Positions 8,006-32,040 of a stretch of 32,040 nucleotides of DNA are shown piece by piece. The stretch comes from Alphaproteobacteria bacterium (lineage in GTDB: Bacteria; Pseudomonadota; Alphaproteobacteria; Acetobacterales; Acetobacteraceae). The stretch lies in assembly GCA_026400845.1 (NCBI GenBank), contig JAPLOH010000064.1:41574-73613 (forward strand), written 5' to 3'. The notes below the pieces were generated by a model, which did not search any database, was not told where the DNA came from, and worked only from the letters and a program-made list of their open reading frames with translations. Each line of letters opens with the position of its first letter. The first letter of the stretch is position 1. The position numbers and the translations under genes are program-made.

Positions 8006-8259
8006 TCTACGTATCCCTTCTGAAGGTCGCCGGGTTTCCCCGGATGTAAGGCCGTCGTGACCGCGACGAAGGTACGATAGCCATCTATCCAGAGCCGGGG
8101 CAACGGGGCCGTCGCGTGTGAGCGACGGAGGTACAAGTCGCAAAGAGTACGGGCCGGCATCGATTCCGCTGCAAGGCCTGTGGTAGGCTTGCTTGAATGG
8201 GGCCGGAATGTCGTGCCGGCCCTCATGTTGTCCGTTCGCGCATGGTAGAGGTAAGTGTC

Positions 8260-9072
8260 ATGACCCAGCAGATCAAGGATTTCAGCGACGAGGTCGAGGA
8301 GCTTGCCTCGTGCCTCATGACCATGCCGGCGAATGCTTGGACAGCGGCGACCGGGTTCAAGGATTGGACGCCAGAGGACGTGGTGCAGCACCTGCACCAT
8401 AGCGATCTGATGGCAATGGCTTCGGCCGATGGCGTCGAGGCCTTCGCAGCCTTTCGCGCCGACATGCAGGCGATGCGTGATCGCGGAATGACCAACGTGG
8501 AGGCGACCCGCGTGCGGCTGGGCAATCCACAGGGGCTTCAATTGCTGGAACTGTGGCGGCGCACTGCGCTGGTTCTGTGCGAGCGGTTGTCGTTGCTTGC
8601 GCCCGAGACGCGGATGCCCTGGGCTGGACCCGGGATGGGGCTGCGCATGTTTGCCACCGCCCGGCAGATGGAAACCTGGTCGCATGGACAGGCGATCTAT
8701 GACCTGCTTGGCATGGAGCGGCCTGCTGCCTCACCACGGCTGCGCAACATCGCCGAAATCGGCGTTCGCACATTTGGTTGGACGTTCAAGAACCGGACGC
8801 AGGAGCCGCCGGGGCCGCAGCCCGAGGTGCGGCTGGAGACGCCGTTTGGAGAACCCTGGGTCTGGATCGGCGAAGGTGGGTTCGTGGTGGGCGGAGTCAT
8901 CCAGTTCTGCCAGGTGGTAACGCAAACCCGGAATGTCGCCGACACCCAGCTGCGGGTGGAAGGTGAAGCGGCCCGGGAATGGATGGCGCTGGCGCAGTGC
9001 TTTGCCGGGCCTCCGGAGATGCCGCCGAAGCCTGGCGCACGCGTCCAGTCCGTGCGACGTTGGGGCGGCTGA
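8260..9072 (+). CDS. TIGR03084-type DinB/maleylpyruvate-isomerase-fold protein
   Basis: A 270-aa protein resembling the TIGR03084 family, whose N-terminal half adopts the DinB/MDMPI four-helix fold. The family's metal-binding residues appear conserved: histidines in VVQHLHHSD (residues 42-49) and E138/H142 in METWSHGQAIYDLLG. A beta-rich C-terminal domain carries LETPFGEPWVWIGEG. The fold is used by mycothiol-, glutathione- and other thiol-dependent enzymes, but the reaction of this family is not established. I chose the ATG at 8260 because it is preceded by GAGGTAAG at good spacing and starts the conserved helix (MTQQIKDF). ATGs at 8197 and 8242 are possible but less likely. It is divergent from the SDR gene, with a 254-base region between them. 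Confidence 0.85.
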   Translation: MTQQIKDFSDEVEELASCLMTMPANAWTAATGFKDWTPEDVVQHLHHSDLMAMASADGVEAFAAFRADMQAMRDRGMTNVEATRVRLGNPQGLQLLELWRRTALVLCERLSLLAPETRMPWAGPGMGLRMFATARQMETWSHGQAIYDLLGMERPAASPRLRNIAEIGVRTFGWTFKNRTQEPPGPQPEVRLETPFGEPWVWIGEGGFVVGGVIQFCQVVTQTRNVADTQLRVEGEAAREWMALAQCFAGPPEMPPKPGARVQSVRRWGG

Positions 9073-10993: not shown

Positions 10994-11278
10994 GCCCGTC
11001 TCCTCATTTCGCTCGTCCGCTGCGGCGTCACAATTTCATGGGCCACCCGAGCGGACGGCGCCGCGGCGAAGTTAGGGTGCCTCTCGCCGTGATGCCAGCA
11101 CTGTTGTGGCCAGCATGTTCCCACGGCAGCTGCTGTGCGTATGCACACACTGGCGCGAACGTTGCCGCATATCTAAAGTTGGCGAATCTCCCGTCAACAG
11201 CAGATTGCGGACATATGTTGCCGGTGAGTGCGATGAGATCGCACCACGCTGACAACGGCCGAAGGAGTTGCAACAGAT
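10994..11278. other. divergent intergenic region, GMC oxidoreductase / epimerase homologue
   Basis: This 285-base spacer must hold the promoters of both flanking genes, which point away from each other. I see no convincing -35/-10 pair. A GAAGGAG ribosome site lies about 11 bases before the ATG at 11279. Several short TGCGTATGCACACA-like, partly palindromic stretches occur near 11135-11150. Confidence 0.4.
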
Positions 11279-12280
11279 ATGGCGCCACGTCCCCAGAGAC
11301 TGACAATCTCCCACCGCGCGTGGGCGCTCGCGCGGCCCTTGAGGACAGCGCAGGGTGTCTCGACCACGACCGACGTCATCATCGCTGAAATCTCCGACGG
11401 CGACGTAACCGGCCGCGGCGAATGTATCCCGATCGGGCGTAACGGCGAATGTGCCGAAAGCGTCATGGCTGCACTCGCCGCAATGAAAGGTCCCATTTCC
11501 TCGGGCCTCAACCGGGACACGCTGCAACATGCGCTCCCACCGGGCGCGGCGCGGAATGCGCTCGATTGCGCTTTCTGGCACCTGGATGCGAACCGCCTCT
11601 ATCGAAGCGTCCCGGAACTGGCGGGACTCGGTGCCGTGAAGCCGATCACGACGGCATTCACGCTTGCATTCGACACGCCGGAGAAAATGGCTGAGCAGGC
11701 TGCCGCAAATGCCGCCCGGCCGATCATGAGGCTGGAACTGTATGGCGTCGGCGATATCGAACGGGTGCGAGCAGTACGGGACATGGCGCCGGCGTCTCGG
11801 ATCGTTATTGATGCCAATGAGAGTTGGAGTGAAACCCAGCTTGACGAGTTCATGCCGGCATTGCTCGATCTGAGAGTCGAACTGGTGGAGCAGCCGCTGC
11901 CGGCTGATGCCGATGATGCGCTGACGCGGTTGGAATATCCGATCCTGGTTTGCGCCGACGAATCCTGTCGATCGCGCGCCGATTTGGACCGGCTCGCTGG
12001 AAAGTATGCGGCCGTCAATATAAAACTGGACAAGGTCGGCGGGCTGACCGAGGCGCTCGCGCTGGCGGAGGAAGCCACGCGGCGCGGCTTGCAGATCATG
12101 GTCGGGAGCATGATCGGTACCTCGCTTGGGGTTGCACCGGCGCTGGTCGTTGCACAGCAGGCCAAGATCGTCCATCTGGACGGACCGTTGCATATTGCAT
12201 TCGATCGCGGCTCGGCGCTCCGCTACGATGGGAGCATCATCCAGCCGGCCATTCCGAACCTCTGGGGTGGACCTTGTTGA
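11279..12280 (+). CDS. enolase-superfamily dipeptide epimerase / N-acyl-Glu racemase-like protein with altered active site
   Basis: A 333-aa protein of the muconate-lactonizing subgroup, closest by sequence style to DgcA-type N-acetyl-D-glutamate racemases and L-Ala-D/L-Glu epimerases. The capping domain has GRGECIP (45-51) and LPPGAARNALDCAFWHLDA (86-104). Metal ligands are conserved: D178 (VIDANES), E204 (VEQPLP) and D227 (CADES). The second catalytic lysine is present (K252 in NIKLDKVGG). The first catalytic lysine pair, normally KxK, is replaced: residues 149-154 read IMRLEL, giving R151 and E153. The barrel is otherwise full length. Epimerisation needs two opposed lysines, so the reaction may be changed or lost. 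It stands alone, convergent with the MFS gene. Confidence 0.85.
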   Translation: MAPRPQRLTISHRAWALARPLRTAQGVSTTTDVIIAEISDGDVTGRGECIPIGRNGECAESVMAALAAMKGPISSGLNRDTLQHALPPGAARNALDCAFWHLDANRLYRSVPELAGLGAVKPITTAFTLAFDTPEKMAEQAAANAARPIMRLELYGVGDIERVRAVRDMAPASRIVIDANESWSETQLDEFMPALLDLRVELVEQPLPADADDALTRLEYPILVCADESCRSRADLDRLAGKYAAVNIKLDKVGGLTEALALAEEATRRGLQIMVGSMIGTSLGVAPALVVAQQAKIVHLDGPLHIAFDRGSALRYDGSIIQPAIPNLWGGPC

Positions 12281-18893: not shown

Positions 18894-19720
18894 TTAGGCT
18901 GCGGCGCTCTGCCGTTCAAGAACTGGTTCGATGGTGTGCCTGGCGCCATGAGCGGCCAGTGCGACCTTGAGGATCGGCAGTTGGCGATGGGCCTTGAGAC
19001 GACGAAAGCCTTTGGCGGCCTCCAGCATGGCGGCTCCCGTCCAGCGCAGGGCCATTGCGGCATCGCGCCAGTGCTTCACGTTGCGGCAGACGCGCCTGAC
19101 CGTGCCGTTCATGTTCTCGATGATGTTGGTGCAAGCCAGCGAGCGCCGCAGTTCGGCGGGAAGGCCGAGGCGGTTGACGGTGAGGATTTCGTCCAGGCCC
19201 TCCAGAATGCTGTCGCGCTCGCCGGGGGCGTCGTGTTCCAACCGCCGGGCTAGATTTCTGATGAGCTTCTCCGCTTTGTCCGCGTCGTCCAGCTCCCAGG
19301 CCTGACGCAACGTCCGGCGAACGGATGCCTGCATGCCCCGGGGCAAGCGCTCGGTGATGTTGCGTGCCTTGTGCACCTGGCAGCGCTGGATCGGCGTATG
19401 GCCACCGAACGTCCGCCGGATCGCCTTGGTCAGCGCCTTGGCGCCGTCGACGATGAACAGGCGGTAGATCGACGGGTCCAGGCCGCGCCCAACCAGATTG
19501 TCGAGCAGCGCCTGCACGGTGGCGGCACTTTCGGTGGCGCCCTCGATCGCGCCAACGGATGCTTGCTCCCCTGCGCGTCGATCCCGACCGCCGCCACCAG
19601 CAGCAATTCCTCCTTTGTTTGGATACCGTCAATCTGGATCGCCAGCAGGTCCAGCGACGAGATGTCCGAGGCCATCCACTCCGCCATGTGGTCAGCCGAC
19701 GGGCGCCGACGGTCGTGTAG
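18894..19720 (-). pseudogene. IS256-family transposase, N-terminally truncated and frameshifted
   Basis: The minus strand encodes most of an IS256/mutator transposase. The catalytic residues appear in LLAIQIDGIQTKEELLL (first Asp), LFIVDGAKALTKAIRRTFGG (second Asp) and CTNIIENMNGTVRRVCRN (Glu). The C-terminus ends at the TAA at 18894-18896. The N-terminal part (through GIDAQGSKHPL) is in a different frame from the rest (from AIEGATESAATVQALLDNL). A single base appears missing near 19551-19552, where TTG-GC-GCG should read TTG-GGC-GCG or similar. Family similarity disappears upstream of about 19700, so roughly the first third is gone. Its sequence differs from the fragments at 6929 and 14014, so it is a separate element. 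Confidence 0.88.
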
Positions 19721-23604: not shown

Positions 23605-24335
23605 GGCGCGATGCCGATCGCGGCTTGCGAGGCATGCACGGGCATATCGTCGAGCAGCTCGGCCGCAGCATCGTCAACGGTGAGATTGCCGTTGGCGAAG
23701 TGTTGCCGCCCGAAGCGGAGATGCTTGAGCGCTTTGCTGTCAGTCGGACTGTGTTGCGAGAGGCTCTGCGGGTGCTGGGCTCGAAAGGCCTAGTTGAAAG
23801 CCGGCAGAAGGTTGGCACCCGGGTCCGCAATATCGCGGCCTGGAGCCTGCTCGACCCTGACGTGATGTCGTGGTTGGAGACGCGGTCGCTTACTCCGGAC
23901 CTGCGTGACCGCCTGCTAGAGTTCCGCCGCATCTTCGAGCCAGCCGCGGCTGCCCTGGCTGCGCAGCGTGCGACGCCGGCCGACCGCGCCGCCCTCGCGG
24001 CTGCTGTCGCCGGCATGAAAAATGCCATCAACGACCCGGCCGACTATTTCAATGCCGACCTTGCCTTCCACAAGCATCTGTTCGCTGCTACCGGCAACCC
24101 ATTCCTAGTTTCGCTTGGCCACGCGGTGCTGGGGTTGCTGAGTTTTGCCTTCAAGCTCCAGCAACATTCGCTGATCACCTGGAAGATCGGTTTGAAGATG
24201 CACACGGCATTGCTCTTCGCGATTCAAACCGGTGACGCCGCCGCTGCCGGCGCAGCCATGCTCGACATCATCAACCGAGCTGGTGCCGAACTCGATGAAT
24301 TCATGCACTGCGCAGGAGCACAGGCCGACCAATGA
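23601..24335 (+). CDS. FadR/GntR family transcriptional regulator (FCD domain)
   Basis: DNA-binding regulator of 244 aa. The N-terminal winged helix-turn-helix (residues about 12-78) includes LPPEAEMLERFAVSRTVLRE and VLGSKGLVESRQKVGTRV. The C-terminal FCD effector domain (about 95-230) has the metal-ligand pattern D-x3-H in NADLAFHKHLFAATGN plus a later His (KMHTAL). FCD regulators typically bind acid or sugar-acid effectors and repress catabolic genes. I start at the ATG at 23601, overlapping the SDR stop (ATGA), rather than at the in-frame ATG at 23589. It lies inside the operon it probably controls. Confidence 0.92.
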   Translation: MRRDADRGLRGMHGHIVEQLGRSIVNGEIAVGEVLPPEAEMLERFAVSRTVLREALRVLGSKGLVESRQKVGTRVRNIAAWSLLDPDVMSWLETRSLTPDLRDRLLEFRRIFEPAAAALAAQRATPADRAALAAAVAGMKNAINDPADYFNADLAFHKHLFAATGNPFLVSLGHAVLGLLSFAFKLQQHSLITWKIGLKMHTALLFAIQTGDAAAAGAAMLDIINRAGAELDEFMHCAGAQADQ

Positions 24336-25537
24336 AGATCGAAGCGATCGAGACACTGCGGCTGTCGGAGTTCGGCAACCTGCTGTGGGTGCACCTGCAT
24401 ACCGACACCGGCATCGTCGGCCTGGGGGAAACGTTCTTCGGGCCGCAGGCGGTCGAGGCGCATATTCACGAAACGGTAGCGCCGCTCTTGCTCGGCCGCG
24501 ATCCCCTTGAGATTGAGCGGATCAGCCGTCAACTCCAGCGGGGATATCTCGGGTTCACGGGCACGGGCGTGGAGATGCGCGCGGCGTCGGCTATCGACCT
24601 GGCTCTATGGGACATATTCGGCAAATCGACCGGACTCCCGGTCTGGCAGCTTCTCGGCGGGCTCGCCCGACCCTCAGTGCGGATCTACAACACCTGCGCC
24701 GGCTATAAATATATTCGCAGCAATGACGGCCAGCGCAGCGATAACTGGGGATTGCCGCAGAAATCCGACACTGGCCCCTATGAAGACCTCGACGCCTTCC
24801 TCAATCGTGCCGACGAGTTGGCGCGCTCGCTGCTCGACCAGGGCATCACGGCAATGAAGATCTGGCCATTCGATCCAGCTGCCGAGGCGTCGGATGGGCG
24901 GTTCATTTCGGACGACGACCTTGAGATCGCACTGGAGCCGTTCCGCAAGATCCGCGCCGCGGTGGGCGGCAAGATGGAAATCATGTGCGAACTGCATTCG
25001 CTGTGGGACCCAGGCACCGCTGAGCGGATCATGACCGCGCTTGCGCCCCTGCGCCCGTACTGGATCGAAGATCCGATCAAGATGACCAGCGCGAAGGATC
25101 TGGCTTGCCTACGCCAACGCACCCGTCTCCCGGTCTGCGGCAGCGAGACCCTGGCCACGCGCAGTGCTTTCCGGGAGTTCCTCGAGGCCGATGCGCTTGA
25201 TTTTGTGATGCTTGACCTCGCCTGGTGCGGAGGCTTGTCGGAAGCCAAGAAGATCGCAACCCTCGCCGAGACCTGGAACAAGCCAGTTGCACCACACGAT
25301 TGCACGGGCCCCGTTGTTTTGACCGCTTCGTGCCACCTGTCCCTGAATGCGACTAATGGCCTCATTCAGGAGACCGTCCGTGCCTTCACCACGGGGTGGT
25401 ACACCGAAGTTGTCGACACGCTGCCGAAAATCGAACGAGGCCGTGTGTATCCCTCGCGCGTGCCTGGGCTCGGTCTGGCGCTCAAGCCGGAGCGGTTCGC
25501 CATGCCCGACTGTCACCGCCGCCTCAGCGCTGCCTAG
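24332..25537 (+). CDS. mandelate racemase-type enolase-superfamily protein, probable acid-sugar dehydratase
   Basis: A 401-aa enolase-superfamily enzyme. The capping domain is at 1-120 (GLGETFFGPQAVEAHIHE). In the barrel the first catalytic position is K176 in MKIWPFD. Metal ligands are likely E220 (MCELHSLWD), E246 (WIEDPI) and E272 (CGSETLATR), and a His is present at H322 (APHDCTGP). This pattern matches D-galactonate/gluconate-type dehydratases, which convert aldonates to 2-keto-3-deoxy acids, more than racemases. It overlaps the regulator stop by ATGA, and the lactonase gene follows seven bases after its stop. The exact stereochemistry of the substrate cannot be read. Confidence 0.9.
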   Translation: MKIEAIETLRLSEFGNLLWVHLHTDTGIVGLGETFFGPQAVEAHIHETVAPLLLGRDPLEIERISRQLQRGYLGFTGTGVEMRAASAIDLALWDIFGKSTGLPVWQLLGGLARPSVRIYNTCAGYKYIRSNDGQRSDNWGLPQKSDTGPYEDLDAFLNRADELARSLLDQGITAMKIWPFDPAAEASDGRFISDDDLEIALEPFRKIRAAVGGKMEIMCELHSLWDPGTAERIMTALAPLRPYWIEDPIKMTSAKDLACLRQRTRLPVCGSETLATRSAFREFLEADALDFVMLDLAWCGGLSEAKKIATLAETWNKPVAPHDCTGPVVLTASCHLSLNATNGLIQETVRAFTTGWYTEVVDTLPKIERGRVYPSRVPGLGLALKPERFAMPDCHRRLSAA

Positions 25538-27789: not shown

Positions 27790-28425
27790 CTAGAAGCGTT
27801 CGACGATGCGGAAGCTGCGGCTGTTGGTGGCGGGGTGGTCGCGCACCGCCACGGCCTCGTCGCCCAAAGCAGCAATGGCGCCCCACAGACAGCGGACATT
27901 GAGCTCGTTCAGTGCCAAGCCGGTGTCCGGGATCCACAGCGCGTCGCCGCCGGCGCCTAGTGCGGTCACCATGGCCCGGTGCTGGGCGCGGATTTCGGCG
28001 TTGGTGAGCAGCGGCAGGGTGAAGCGGGTGATCCGAGGGTTGGCCAGGGCCGGTACCTGGAACTCGGCGCCGGTCAGCAGGTTGCGGTCGCGACGGTCGA
28101 GCATCAGGCGCCCTTCGGTCACGCCATAGGCCATGGCCCGGCTGACCCGCCACAACGGGCCGGCGACCAGCCGTCCGAGATCAATGGCACCGGCATAGGG
28201 TGCCGCGGCGTCGACTTGCATGTAGCGGCCGGTCGCGGCTGACGAGCGCAGCAGGACGACATTGCCGTTGGCGGCGTCGCTGGTTGCTGCGGCCTGGGTT
28301 CCGCTGTCGTGGGTCAGTACGGTGGCATCGAGCGAACTGCCGGTGGACGCGAGGGCCTTGGCCTGGCCGGTGGTCAACTGCCGGCCATAGATGGCGATGC
28401 GGCGAATATAGCTCCTCCCTGACGC
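27790..28425 (-). other. C-terminal module of a second phage tail protein, fused to the tape measure
   Basis: From about 28425 downstream the sequence stops resembling a tape measure. GRSYIRRIAIYGRQLTTGQA looks like the last strand and closing helix of a LamG/concanavalin-like domain. It is followed by a module with AIDLGRLVAGPLWRVSRAMA and LWIPDTGLALNELNVRCLWG, seen in separate phage tail or host-contact proteins. The reading frame is continuous across the junction, so a deletion probably joined two tail genes in frame. Confidence 0.55.
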
Positions 28426-31400
28426 GGTACCCGGCCCGCCGAGCCCACCGCCGGCGGCGCCACCGATGAGGCCGCCGATCAGAGTGCCGATACCGGGGAT
28501 GATGGAGCCGATCGCGGCCCCGGCCATTGCGCCCACCCCGGAGCCGATGGTGCCGCCCAGCTGATTGCCGCCGACCAGGCTGTTGAGCAGCATGCCGGCG
28601 CCAAACCCGGCGCCGACGCCACCGAACATCGCCCCCAGGGTCGGGGCGCCACTGGCGGTGATGCCACCGGCGGTGACCGGCCCGGCCACGTCGGCGCCCC
28701 AGAGCGGCGTGGCCATGAAGCCCGAGGCTGAACCGGAACCACCGAACAGGCTGCCGAGGCCAGAGAACAAGCCGCTGCCGCCGATGCTGCCGCCCCCACC
28801 GGACAGACCCGACGGCGACGCCGCTGGCATGGAGGTGCCGAGCACCGAATTCAGCACCGGGTTGATCACCGCTAGCTTGAGCACCTGCTGCAACACCGCG
28901 GAGATGATGCTGCTGGCTACGTTGCCCCAGTTGATCGCCGCGCGCTGGCCGCTGACGAAGGCATTGGCGATGGCGCTGCCGACCTGGTCGAAGGCCTGGC
29001 TCGCCGCATTGGCGATGCCGTCATAGAGCGATTGCTGCTGCTTCAGCGCGTAGTTGGCGCTGGCGATCTGCTTGGACTGCTCCACCAGGGCCTGCTGGGT
29101 CTCGGTCAGGCTCTCGGCATCGGGCGCCTTGCCTGAGGTGATCAGGCCGCGGATGGTCCGCAACGCCGCCAGTTCCCGTTCCCGCTGCTCGGCGGACTGG
29201 CCGATGAGGGCGGCCTCGGCGCGCAGATCGTCCAACTGGCCCTGGCCGGCCCGCAGGGCACGTTCGGCGTCGAGGTCGTTGTTCAACTTCTCCTGCAACT
29301 CCACCTTCTGACCCATGAGCACGATGAGGGCGGTCATGGCCGCCTTCACCGCCGGATCGGTGGCGGCATCGCGATATGCGCGGGCGGACAGCGTGACCTG
29401 CCGGACCTTGTCGTCGATCTTGGCGTAATAAGCGGCACGGTCGCCGGATTGCTCGGCGGCAATCAGCGCCTTGGTGGCACCGATCTGCTCGTTGAGTTCG
29501 ACGACGGTCTGCGCCCCCTTGGCCGCCTCCTGCGCCGCGTTGCGATTGAGGATGGCGGCGGCGAGTGCTGTCTCTGATACGCCGGTCTTGGTGGCGGCCT
29601 GCTCATGCGCCTCGGCTGCGGCGGTGGCGCGCAGCATGGCGGCGCGGCCTTCCTCGGCGGCACGCACCATGGCCATCTGCGCCGTCTCCGCGCGCATGAT
29701 GCCGGCGAGTTCCTGGCCACGGGCGTCGGTCTCGCTCGCCAGCGCCAGGGTGACGGCCTTGCGACGGTATTCCTCGGCGGCGAGGCCGGTGAGGGCGTGC
29801 TCGCGGATATAGCCCTCGGCCTCGATCTCGGCCTTGACCCGAACCCGATCGGGCAACCCAGCGGCAAGAATACGCTGCTGATCCGCCAGCGCCTTGTTGA
29901 TGTCCTCCAACTGCTTCTTCTGCCGTTCGGCCTCGGCAGCGCCGATGGCGGCGGCCGGTGGCGCGGGCGGCTCGGGTGCGGCGGCGGCACCGCCCTGCAC
30001 CTGTCCCCCCGCCAGCATGCGCATGGCAAGCAGATCGGCACGCTGCTGGCGCAGGATGCGCTCGGCGTCGCCGGTGACGACGGGGGCGCCGTAGCTGTCG
30101 CGTTCGGCCAGTTTGGTGTCGATCTGGCCGACACGGCGATCGATGGTCGCGACAGGTGGTTCCGCCTCGAGCAGCTTGTTGGCGGCAGCACCGACCGCGG
30201 TCAGCACGACCAAGGCGGCCTGGATCGGGCCGGACTGGGCGATGCGGTCCATCAAAGTGGACCATTCATTGCCCAGCGCCCGCACTGCCTTGGCCGCCGG
30301 TGACAGCGCGTCCTGGTCGAGCCCGTGCACGCGGAGCCGCAAGGCCTCCATCGCCTTGGCCACGGCCTCGGTGCGCTCGCCATGTTCGAGCATGACGCGG
30401 ATGGCGGCGCGCTGGTCGGCGGTGAGCAGGTTCAACTCATCGTCAAGCGACTTCAACGCCGTATACGAGCCGGAGGCGATCTCACCCAGGCGCTTGGCCA
30501 CCGCGGCCTGATCGGTCCCACCCAACGCCACCGTGGTATCGGCAGTGAGGCCGACGACCTGCTGGATCTGCGCATTGCCCAACGCCGGAACCCGGGCCAG
30601 GCCCTGAACGATGGCGGCGGCGGCATCGCGGGCGACGCCGGCGTGCTGCAGCGTTACAATGTAGCCCTGCAGCGAGGCCGTCGCGAGATCGCCGTCGCGG
30701 CCCAGTCTCCAGCGCCGCGGCGTGCGCCATGGCCAAGGCGAAAGCACCGCCCACCGCCACGGCGGCGCCGATCGGTGACAGCAAGGCGCCGGCCACCATG
30801 CGGGCGGCGGTGCCGAGCACGCCGAAGCCGGTGCCGGTGGACATGGCGACGTCCGCGACCTGATGACCCTGTTGGATCATCGTCATCATCACCGGCTGCC
30901 CGGCGGCGATGGACGATACCGCCTGCATGGTCTGCACGCCCAACTGGCGCAGGGCGAACGCGTTGGCCCCGGCCGAGACGCCGAGTGCCTCCTGTTGCTT
31001 CGCAGCCTCGACCGTCTTGCCGGCCAGCACTGCCGTGGCGGAGGCGGCCACGCCGGTCGGCGCTGTGGCGTCGGCGAATGCCTTGGTGGCGGCCTCGCGG
31101 GCCCGGGCGGCGACGGTGGCGGAGATCGCCCCAACCCGCTCAGCCTGGGCGATCTCGGCGAGGGTCGTTTCATAGGTCCGGGAGACCGCAAACAGGGGAT
31201 CGAACTTCGCGCGGAGGCGATCGAGTTCGGCACCATAGGCCGCGACATCGGCCCCACGGGCGGCGAGGGCGTCGCCCGCAAGCGGTGCCGCGACGCCGGC
31301 CCCGCGATTGGCGGCCTGCTGGACGTCGACCAGACGGATCATGGCAATGCCGAGTTGGCTGTAACTCTCGGCCAGGCCCGCATTGGCGCTGATCTGCTGC

Positions 31401-31768
31401 TCGTAGCTGGCGAAGGCGCGCTGCCGGGCGACGACAGCTTCCCCGCTGGCGATCGCGCCGACGCGCTCGGCCTGCGCGATATCGGCGAGCGTCGTCTCGT
31501 GGCGGCGCATCGTGCCGAACAGCGGGTTGAACGAGGCCTGCAGCCGGTCGAGCCCGGCCCCATAGGCGGCAATGTCGGCCGCCCGGCGCGCGAAGGCGTC
31601 GTCGGGGCCGGCAATGCCCGACATGGCCGCGGACGCCCGCTGGCCGGCCTGGGTGATGCGGTCCAGCACCTGATCACCGAGACTGCCGAGCGCCTCGAAC
31701 TTGCCACGCGCGGCATCGAGGTCCTCGGTCGACAGCCGGATCGCGGCGACGCGTGTTGAACCGCTCAT
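27790..31768 (-). pseudogene. prophage tail tape-measure protein, frameshifted, 3' part fused to another tail protein
   Basis: Long minus-strand gene for the tail-length ruler of a siphophage-like prophage. It starts at ATG 31768 (MSGSTRVAAIRLSTEDLDAA), overlapping the upstream gene (ATGA). Residues 265-345 match the tape-measure N-terminal domain, with LRQLGVQTMQAVSSIAAGQP and a hydrophobic stretch. After residue 356 the frame breaks at a GGG (plus-strand ccc, 30701-30703). Dropping one base joins ALETG to RDGDLATASLQGYIVTLQ and continues about 970 codons to TAG at 27790. The remainder is helical and coiled-coil rich, then Gly-rich with a glycine zipper (GAAIGSIIPGIGTLIGGLIG). The last ~210 codons belong to a different tail protein. 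A frameshift error in the sequence is possible. Confidence 0.8.
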
Positions 31769-32040
31769 GATGGAGTCAACTCCGCGAGAACGTTGGCCAG
31801 CAGCAGCGGCACGGCCCGGTCGCGCACGGCGTCCACATCGAGGCGCTTGCGCAGCACGACCTGGCGCACCAGCACGAACATCGGCACGAAGCCGCGGTCG
31901 AGCACTTCGCGCGCCATGGCTTGTTGGCCCTTGCGATGCCCGGTCAGCACCTCGGTGGCGTCGCCCACGAACAGGCGGATACGATTGCGCCCGCGCTGCT
32001 TCATGCCGCGCGCCTCGTTGACCCGCAGGCACCACAGGAA
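31765..32040 (-). CDS. phage tail assembly chaperone-like gene, partial
   Basis: This frame is open from the right edge of the window to TGA at 31767-31765, at least 91 codons. An internal ATG at 32004 could start a 79-aa version, but coding upstream of it (FLWCLRVNEARG) suggests a longer gene that begins outside the window. The stop overlaps the tape-measure start by ATGA. In tailed phages the gene immediately before the tape measure usually encodes a tail assembly chaperone, so I infer that role from position. No diagnostic motif is visible. Confidence 0.6.
   Translation of the reverse strand, partial: FLWCLRVNEARGMKQRGRNRIRLFVGDATEVLTGHRKGQQAMAREVLDRGFVPMFVLVRQVVLRKRLDVDAVRDRAVPLLLANVLAELTPS

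Follow-up and report, generated by a model that had tools for sequence, protein, structure and literature searches.

The enolase superfamily is a model of how one active site can yield many reactions. We know of few descriptions of lineages in this superfamily that have given up catalysis and kept the fold. The window, by which we mean the whole stretch of 32,040 nucleotides that was analysed, carries a gene that looks like the racemase DgcA and lacks the lysine pair on which the subgroup is built. We asked whether its product is still a racemase, an enzyme with a new reaction, the product of a decaying gene or a protein kept for another role.

The window gene probably derives from DgcA

The gene was analysed as one open reading frame:

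11279–12280, plus strand: DgcA-like reading frame of the enolase superfamily, ATG start, 333 amino acids; orphan and racemase-dead by sequence

A profile search found the Pfam domains MR_MLE_N and MR_MLE_C in the protein. The NCBIfam model NF042940 (DgcA) matched over profile positions 1–323 of 323 with 417 bits, above its cut-off of 400; the model NF011708 for L-Ala-D/L-Glu epimerase gave 278.5 bits, below its cut-off of 343. The nearest solved relatives by sequence (phmmer) were 4gfi and the E. coli L-Ala-D/L-Glu epimerase 1jpd. An AlphaFold model, computed with an input alignment of 7 sequences, had a pLDDT of 83.2. Its best structure matches were 4gfi (Z 37.2, 43% identity) and then 1jpd (Z 36.6).

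Capping domain, barrel and the D-E-D metal ligands are those of the muconate-lactonizing subgroup, whereas the KxK that ends strand 2 in this subgroup reads RxE in the window protein (strand 149–153). Two acid/base lysines, at 153 and 249, are typical of DgcA; the window protein has E153 and K249. With DgcA, for which 4gfi is the nearest solved structure, it has length, domain order, metal ligands and K249 in common, but K151 and K153 are replaced and R25, Y52, Y55, C277 and D299 have become Q, I, N, S and H. The epimerases YcjG (1jpd) and YkfB (1jpm, Z 32.5) have the same fold, metal ligands and opposite lysine; the window protein differs from both in lacking the strand-2 lysine pair and in scoring under the NCBIfam epimerase cut-off. 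On the best reading, the window gene belongs to a lineage that descends from the N-acetyl-D-glutamate racemase DgcA, a member of the muconate-lactonizing subgroup.

The catalytic lysine pair is replaced and the metal ligands are kept

The following positions were compared with the canonical proteins and with a clade of 26 genes that includes the window gene (see below).

11351–11353, plus strand: Q25; R in 41 of the 41 canonical rows that have the position; non-synonymous rate in the clade 9th highest of 333 sites
11729–11737, plus strand: R151-L152-E153 (codons AGG CTG GAA) where barrel strand 2 ends, a site taken by the catalytic K-x-K in canonical proteins
11810–11812, plus strand: D178, metal ligand, present in 26 of 26 clade members
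11888–11890, plus strand: E204, metal ligand, present in 24 of 26
11957–11959, plus strand: D227, metal ligand, present in 24 of 26
12023–12025, plus strand: K249, opposite catalytic lysine, in NIK after strand 6; kept here, lost in 8 of 26
12032–12034, plus strand: K252, kept in 25 of 26; not the catalytic position
12173–12175, plus strand: H299; D in 43 of 43 canonical rows

The first-pass annotation had described an RLE motif without KxK at 11720–11745, and this was borne out. R151-L152-E153 aligns without gaps with K-I-K of 4gfi and K-V-K of 1jpd (phmmer). The same annotation was also right that all three metal ligands and a lysine on the opposite face are kept, but it had named K252 as this lysine. 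The alignment with 1jpd puts K249 there, at chain position 250 (residue 247 once the numbering offset is taken into account), and E153 at residue 151. We take K151 and K247 to be the catalytic pair of E. coli YcjG. In the AlphaFold model E153 is the last residue of strand 149–153, and K249 follows strand 245–248. The equivalent pair of YkfB is K162 and K268, and mutation of either lysine reduces its activity according to the accessible part of PMC5808125.

Two simple causes of the RxE motif were rejected. Sequence error is excluded because RxE occurs in 7 and E153 in 15 of the 26 clade members, in several assemblies; among the RxE genes are an orthologue that is 83% identical (L031, the same gene as L003) and L034. 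A shifted lysine pair was not found, the alignments A1 (7 rows) and A2 (26 rows) being ungapped across 145–156.

Racemase residues are eroded in one clade

Homologues were collected from the genus, two sister genera, samples of the family (397 genomes), class (385) and order (395) and a scan of named genomes. The loci were the best 30 matches per search, and for the class the best 30 of the matches in 138 of 385 genomes. Other rows outside the clade were drawn from further searches including the family sample and the named genomes. Before the tree was built, the duplicates L001 and L031–L035 (equal to the window, L003, L095, L089, L096 and L061) and a 99-residue fragment in L034 were dropped. 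This fragment (L034, 10834–11130) is a degraded second copy that lies about 1.9 kb downstream of the intact gene, with its pieces in different frames.

In the resulting tree of 76 rows, 26 genes including that of the window form a clade with a support of 100/100. Among the matches listed they come from 25 genomes of one family; four of these assemblies have public names, all of them uncultured Acetobacteraceae or Rhodospirillales. The gene is present in 5 of 5 genomes of the genus and in 19 of 33 and 1 of 2 genomes of the two sister genera. L099 has a short masked stretch close to the gene start.

The full set K151, K153, K249, D178, E204 and D227 was found in all 50 rows outside the clade, compared with a single member inside it (L095). 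The motif at 151–153 reads KxE in 8 members, RxE in 7, TxK in 2, KxM in 2, and KxK, KxQ, IxN, KxA, KxH, RxQ and RxA in one each, and position 153 is taken by E, K, Q, M, A, N or H. At position 249, K is found in 18 members, T in 3 (among them L044, the IxN member), G in 2, and R, S and A in one each. K153 is lost in 23 members and K249 in 8; both are kept in 3 and neither in 8, while E153 and K249 occur together in 13, window included. All losses of K249 fall in members without K153 (8 of 8), though 23 of the 26 lack K153 anyway. At least 11 changes at position 153 and at least 7 at position 249 are needed over the 76-row tree. The order of the losses is tentative, since most deep branches inside the clade are poorly resolved.

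The metal trio D178, E204 and D227 is intact in 23 members; L093, L094 and L098 have lost at least one ligand as well. L093 keeps K151 and only one of the three ligands, with H153, G249, Q204 and G227. Positions 21, 25, 52, 55, 278 and 299 also vary within the clade. They are presumed to line the substrate pocket, a reading based on where they sit in the family and on the specificity residues named in the accessible part of PMC3965090. One bacterial family thus holds a graded series: L095 has a complete site, other members show single losses, and L093 is nearly stripped; canonical relatives are there to compare them with.

The curated DgcA model does not separate these proteins. When NF042940 was run on 10 of the 25 other clade members, 6 passed (L095, L093, L091, L041, L006 and L003) and L094, L098, L044 and L099 were just short at 383–393 bits. 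Among the degraded members scored, 5 of 9 lie above the cut-off. Since members without the acid/base lysines pass, records of this lineage may be called racemase, which makes the model's acceptance of such proteins an annotation hazard. No report of this DgcA-derived lineage was found in the titles and abstract openings of the literature covered, mostly non-subscription papers.

The partner gene dgcN is missing from the clade genomes

The partner gene was traced with the DUF1611 family (PF07755), which we take to be DgcN. A profile search found full-length DUF1611 in none of the 25 clade genomes, and the window genome (G000) had no match of any length. Partial matches of about 44 model positions, away from the gene, occurred in G386 (25.1 bits, just over the cut-off) and in G373 (below it). 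In 27 canonical genomes, which we chose from earlier matches, DUF1611 was present in 25 and absent from G032 and G037. It lay at most 0.2 kb from dgcA in 23 of these 25, at 0.7 kb in G543 and on another contig in G325. DgcA works together with DgcN according to the accessible parts of PMC10845958 and PMC12363236.

The difference in dgcN presence between clade and canonical genomes has a p of 7e-13 with the genomes counted as independent of kinship. As the 25 genomes form one clade, the absence may be a single loss. The absence of dgcN and the loss of the lysines are tied by their co-occurrence within this one clade and are possibly one event. A second intact DgcA that covers the job was looked for in the window genome (97.8% complete) and rejected; the sole other match is 30% identical.

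The gene is under purifying selection, with relaxed catalytic positions

Constraint was measured with a home-made, FUBAR-like codon-grid likelihood. Over the whole gene, omega was 0.187 in the clade, compared with 0.154 in the 43 canonical genes. P(purifying) exceeded 0.9 at 302 of 333 sites in the clade, and only site 189 had a P(beta>alpha) above 0.7. The 43-row canonical outgroup, used for variability and codon rates, omits seven distant rows that are included in the 50-row residue count. Four outgroup rows (L050, L051, L071 and L087) were aligned through the end stop; this codon was skipped in the codon-grid analysis, and their pairwise omega is possibly off by one codon at the end.

For pairs of at least 78% identity, omega was 0.13–0.37 in 25 clade pairs and 0.08–0.22 in canonical pairs; the window gene and its 83% identical orthologue gave 0.21. 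Since pairwise omega is higher in the clade than in canonical genes at like identity, constraint is somewhat weaker and some relaxation is real. The reading frame is open in all 26 clade genes, with no internal stop at identities down to 58%, and 74 of 323 scored positions are invariant.

The variable sites include those of the former active site. Positions 21, 25, 52, 55, 151, 153, 249, 278 and 299 lie in the 76th–100th percentile of variability in the clade, and outside it all nine are nearly or wholly invariant. The non-synonymous rate beta at the three lysine positions was 0.28–0.54, whereas the other 58 sites that are invariant outside the clade had a median of 0.02 (one-sided p = 0.0015). 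At the metal ligands beta was 0.02–0.10 within the clade. The lysine and presumed pocket positions are relaxed, not diversifying. Diversifying selection on the pocket had been considered, with positions 25 and 278 at the 99th–100th percentile of variability, but was rejected, the codon-grid analysis giving no support.

A conserved leader precedes the gene

Two elements were noted upstream of the start codon:

11232–11242, plus strand: promoter −10-like element GATGAGATCGC, 47 bases upstream of the ATG, 9 of 11 matches
11261–11267, plus strand: ribosome-binding-like sequence GAAGGAG; the same block occurs in L101

The best form of the −10-like element in the clade is TATAAGATCGC, a consensus picked post hoc with the sequences already in view. 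With at least 8 of 11 matches and at 42–48 bases upstream of the start, it was found in 16 of 26 loci, window included; the other 10 have no good match in this interval. Shuffled sequences gave a mean of 0.14 loci and a maximum of 2, and the control windows at −90, −70 and −30 gave 0, 1 and 2. The 64 bases directly upstream of the start codon carry 2 differences between the window and its nearest orthologue, whereas the spacer farther upstream is far more divergent. The protein is probably made from its own promoter, as this pattern suggests. The window gene has a −10-like element of its own and a genome without dgcN, which sets it apart from canonical dgcA.

Neighbouring genes vary between loci

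No neighbour common to all 26 loci was found, and several loci end early at contig ends. A fixed operon partner was rejected: the most frequent neighbour, an SDR, is found on the fetched stretch of only 8 of 26 loci and is the immediate neighbour in 5. The SDR copies are 83–95% identical to the query copy of G386. Of 25 genomes with the gene, 17 carry such an SDR, compared with 3 of 15 related genomes that lack the gene (p = 0.008, without correction for kinship or for the lower completeness of several of these 15). The window neighbours include a GMC oxidoreductase and an MFS transporter (Pfam). The GMC oxidoreductase, 91–94% identical, adjoins the gene in three loci (window, L101 and L116), and the orientation of the gene differs in L116. 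Near other clade copies, SDR, HpcH/HpaI aldolase and amidohydrolase genes were found.

Possible roles of the protein

The racemase residues and the partner gene are lost and the protein is preserved, so a different, perhaps non-catalytic, job is probable. We favour, with reasonable though limited confidence, an orphaned, racemase-dead DgcA lineage that is kept for another role, most likely as a non-catalytic metal-binding barrel. On the simplest account, a DgcA lineage would have lost dgcN and the pathway along with its racemase machinery: most members would have given up the strand-2 lysine pair, and some also K249 or even metal ligands. The role for which the protein was retained would depend on the fold and for the most part on the metal site, whereas neither the lysines nor an unchanging pocket would be required. 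In the window protein, the K153E change would set an acid opposite K249 across the barrel mouth, and a salt bridge could form at the place where two lysines once flanked the substrate alpha-carbon. With E153 facing K249 and possibly bound to it, a two-base 1,1-proton transfer is not expected. The protein would most likely be a pseudoenzyme that acts via ligand or partner binding.

Loss of catalytic residues together with purifying selection on the sequence, the mark of a pseudoenzyme, was found here. As in pseudoenzymes in general, going by the accessible part of the review PMC10415035, the fold is preserved and catalytic residues are missing. The lineage differs from them in that its case is built on sequence. 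Some observations fit less easily: the metal trio in 23 and K249 in 18 of 26 members would seem to exceed the needs of a purely structural role, the recurrence of E153 in 15 could reflect a catalytic task of this residue, and the 3 members with K153 and K249 may still be racemases.

These observations lead to the most serious alternative, a new enzyme. The 13 members with E153 and K249, window included, would run a one-base, metal-assisted reaction such as a dehydration or a one-sided enolization, with K249 or E153 as the base, and the other members would be later losses. The retention of the metal trio, K249 and E153 speaks for it, as do the SDR association and the neighbours that are catabolic by family (GMC oxidoreductase, MFS, SDR, HpcH/HpaI aldolase and amidohydrolase). 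However, the 26 loci, several of them ending early at contig ends, have no neighbour cluster in common, and even the 13 members differ in their residues at position 25 (Q, H, V, R, D or Y), position 278 (G, M, A or V) and position 52 (L, V, I or M), which is unlike a family with one substrate. We regard a new enzyme as unlikely. The first-pass annotation had left the choice between one-base chemistry and a dead enzyme retained for another role. The dead enzyme fits better, because one new reaction should have fixed a new residue set, and the new chemistry fits less well.

Relaxation raises the question of whether the gene is on its way out, its activity having become needless after the loss of dgcN and its remaining conservation being inertia. 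The catalytic and presumed pocket sites are relaxed, the clade omega is somewhat above the canonical one, the gene is patchily present in the sister genus (19 of 33 genomes, several of them incomplete), and L034 has the degraded fragment beside its gene. A decaying gene would nevertheless hardly show an omega of 0.187 with purifying selection at 302 of 333 sites, 26 of 26 open frames down to 58% identity, 74 of 323 invariant positions and a conserved leader element in 16 of 26 loci, and we consider this improbable. A racemase or dipeptide epimerase in which another residue replaces the lysines seems very improbable indeed. It would explain the NCBIfam equivalog score of 417 over the cut-off of 400, and L095 keeps every residue while two more members keep K153 and K249. 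But no substitute lysine is found in the ungapped stretch 145–156, dgcN is absent from the clade genomes, and in YkfB the mutation of either lysine lowers the activity according to the accessible part of PMC5808125.

Positions 153 and 249 were also compared as a pair. K or R stands at 249 in 14 of 15 members with E153, compared with 2 of 8 other members without K153 (p = 0.0017). This link does not survive correction for relatedness, as the supported branches yield 2–3 independent pairs (sign test p = 1); by corrected mutual information the two columns stand at rank 312 of 15753. Charge compensation between the two positions is suggestive only; a salt bridge that replaces the catalytic pair would explain it. 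We tentatively picture a conserved pseudoenzyme family in the muconate-lactonizing subgroup, a possibility to which we give a little less than even weight. Its two-base centre would have become an E153-K249 salt bridge and, in some lines, a neutral pair, and the metal-binding barrel with its free pocket would serve binding or regulation in Acetobacteraceae.

Other features of the window

A second enolase-superfamily gene lies at 24332–25537 on the plus strand. Its nearest model is galactonate dehydratase, with 189 bits against a cut-off of 311. In the same row are a GntR/FCD regulator, an SMP-30 lactonase-like gene and a sugar-type ABC transporter, and this part of the window looks like a sugar-acid catabolic operon. 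At 27790–32035 (minus strand) there are very long frames that by eye resemble a phage tail tape-measure region; a Pfam search with the 985-residue frame among them gave no match. A C-terminal piece of a Mutator-family transposase (profile positions 213–376 of 379), apparently a remnant, is found at 18894–19517 (minus strand). The frame at 8242–9072 (plus strand) encodes a protein with a mycothiol-maleylpyruvate-isomerase N-terminal domain.
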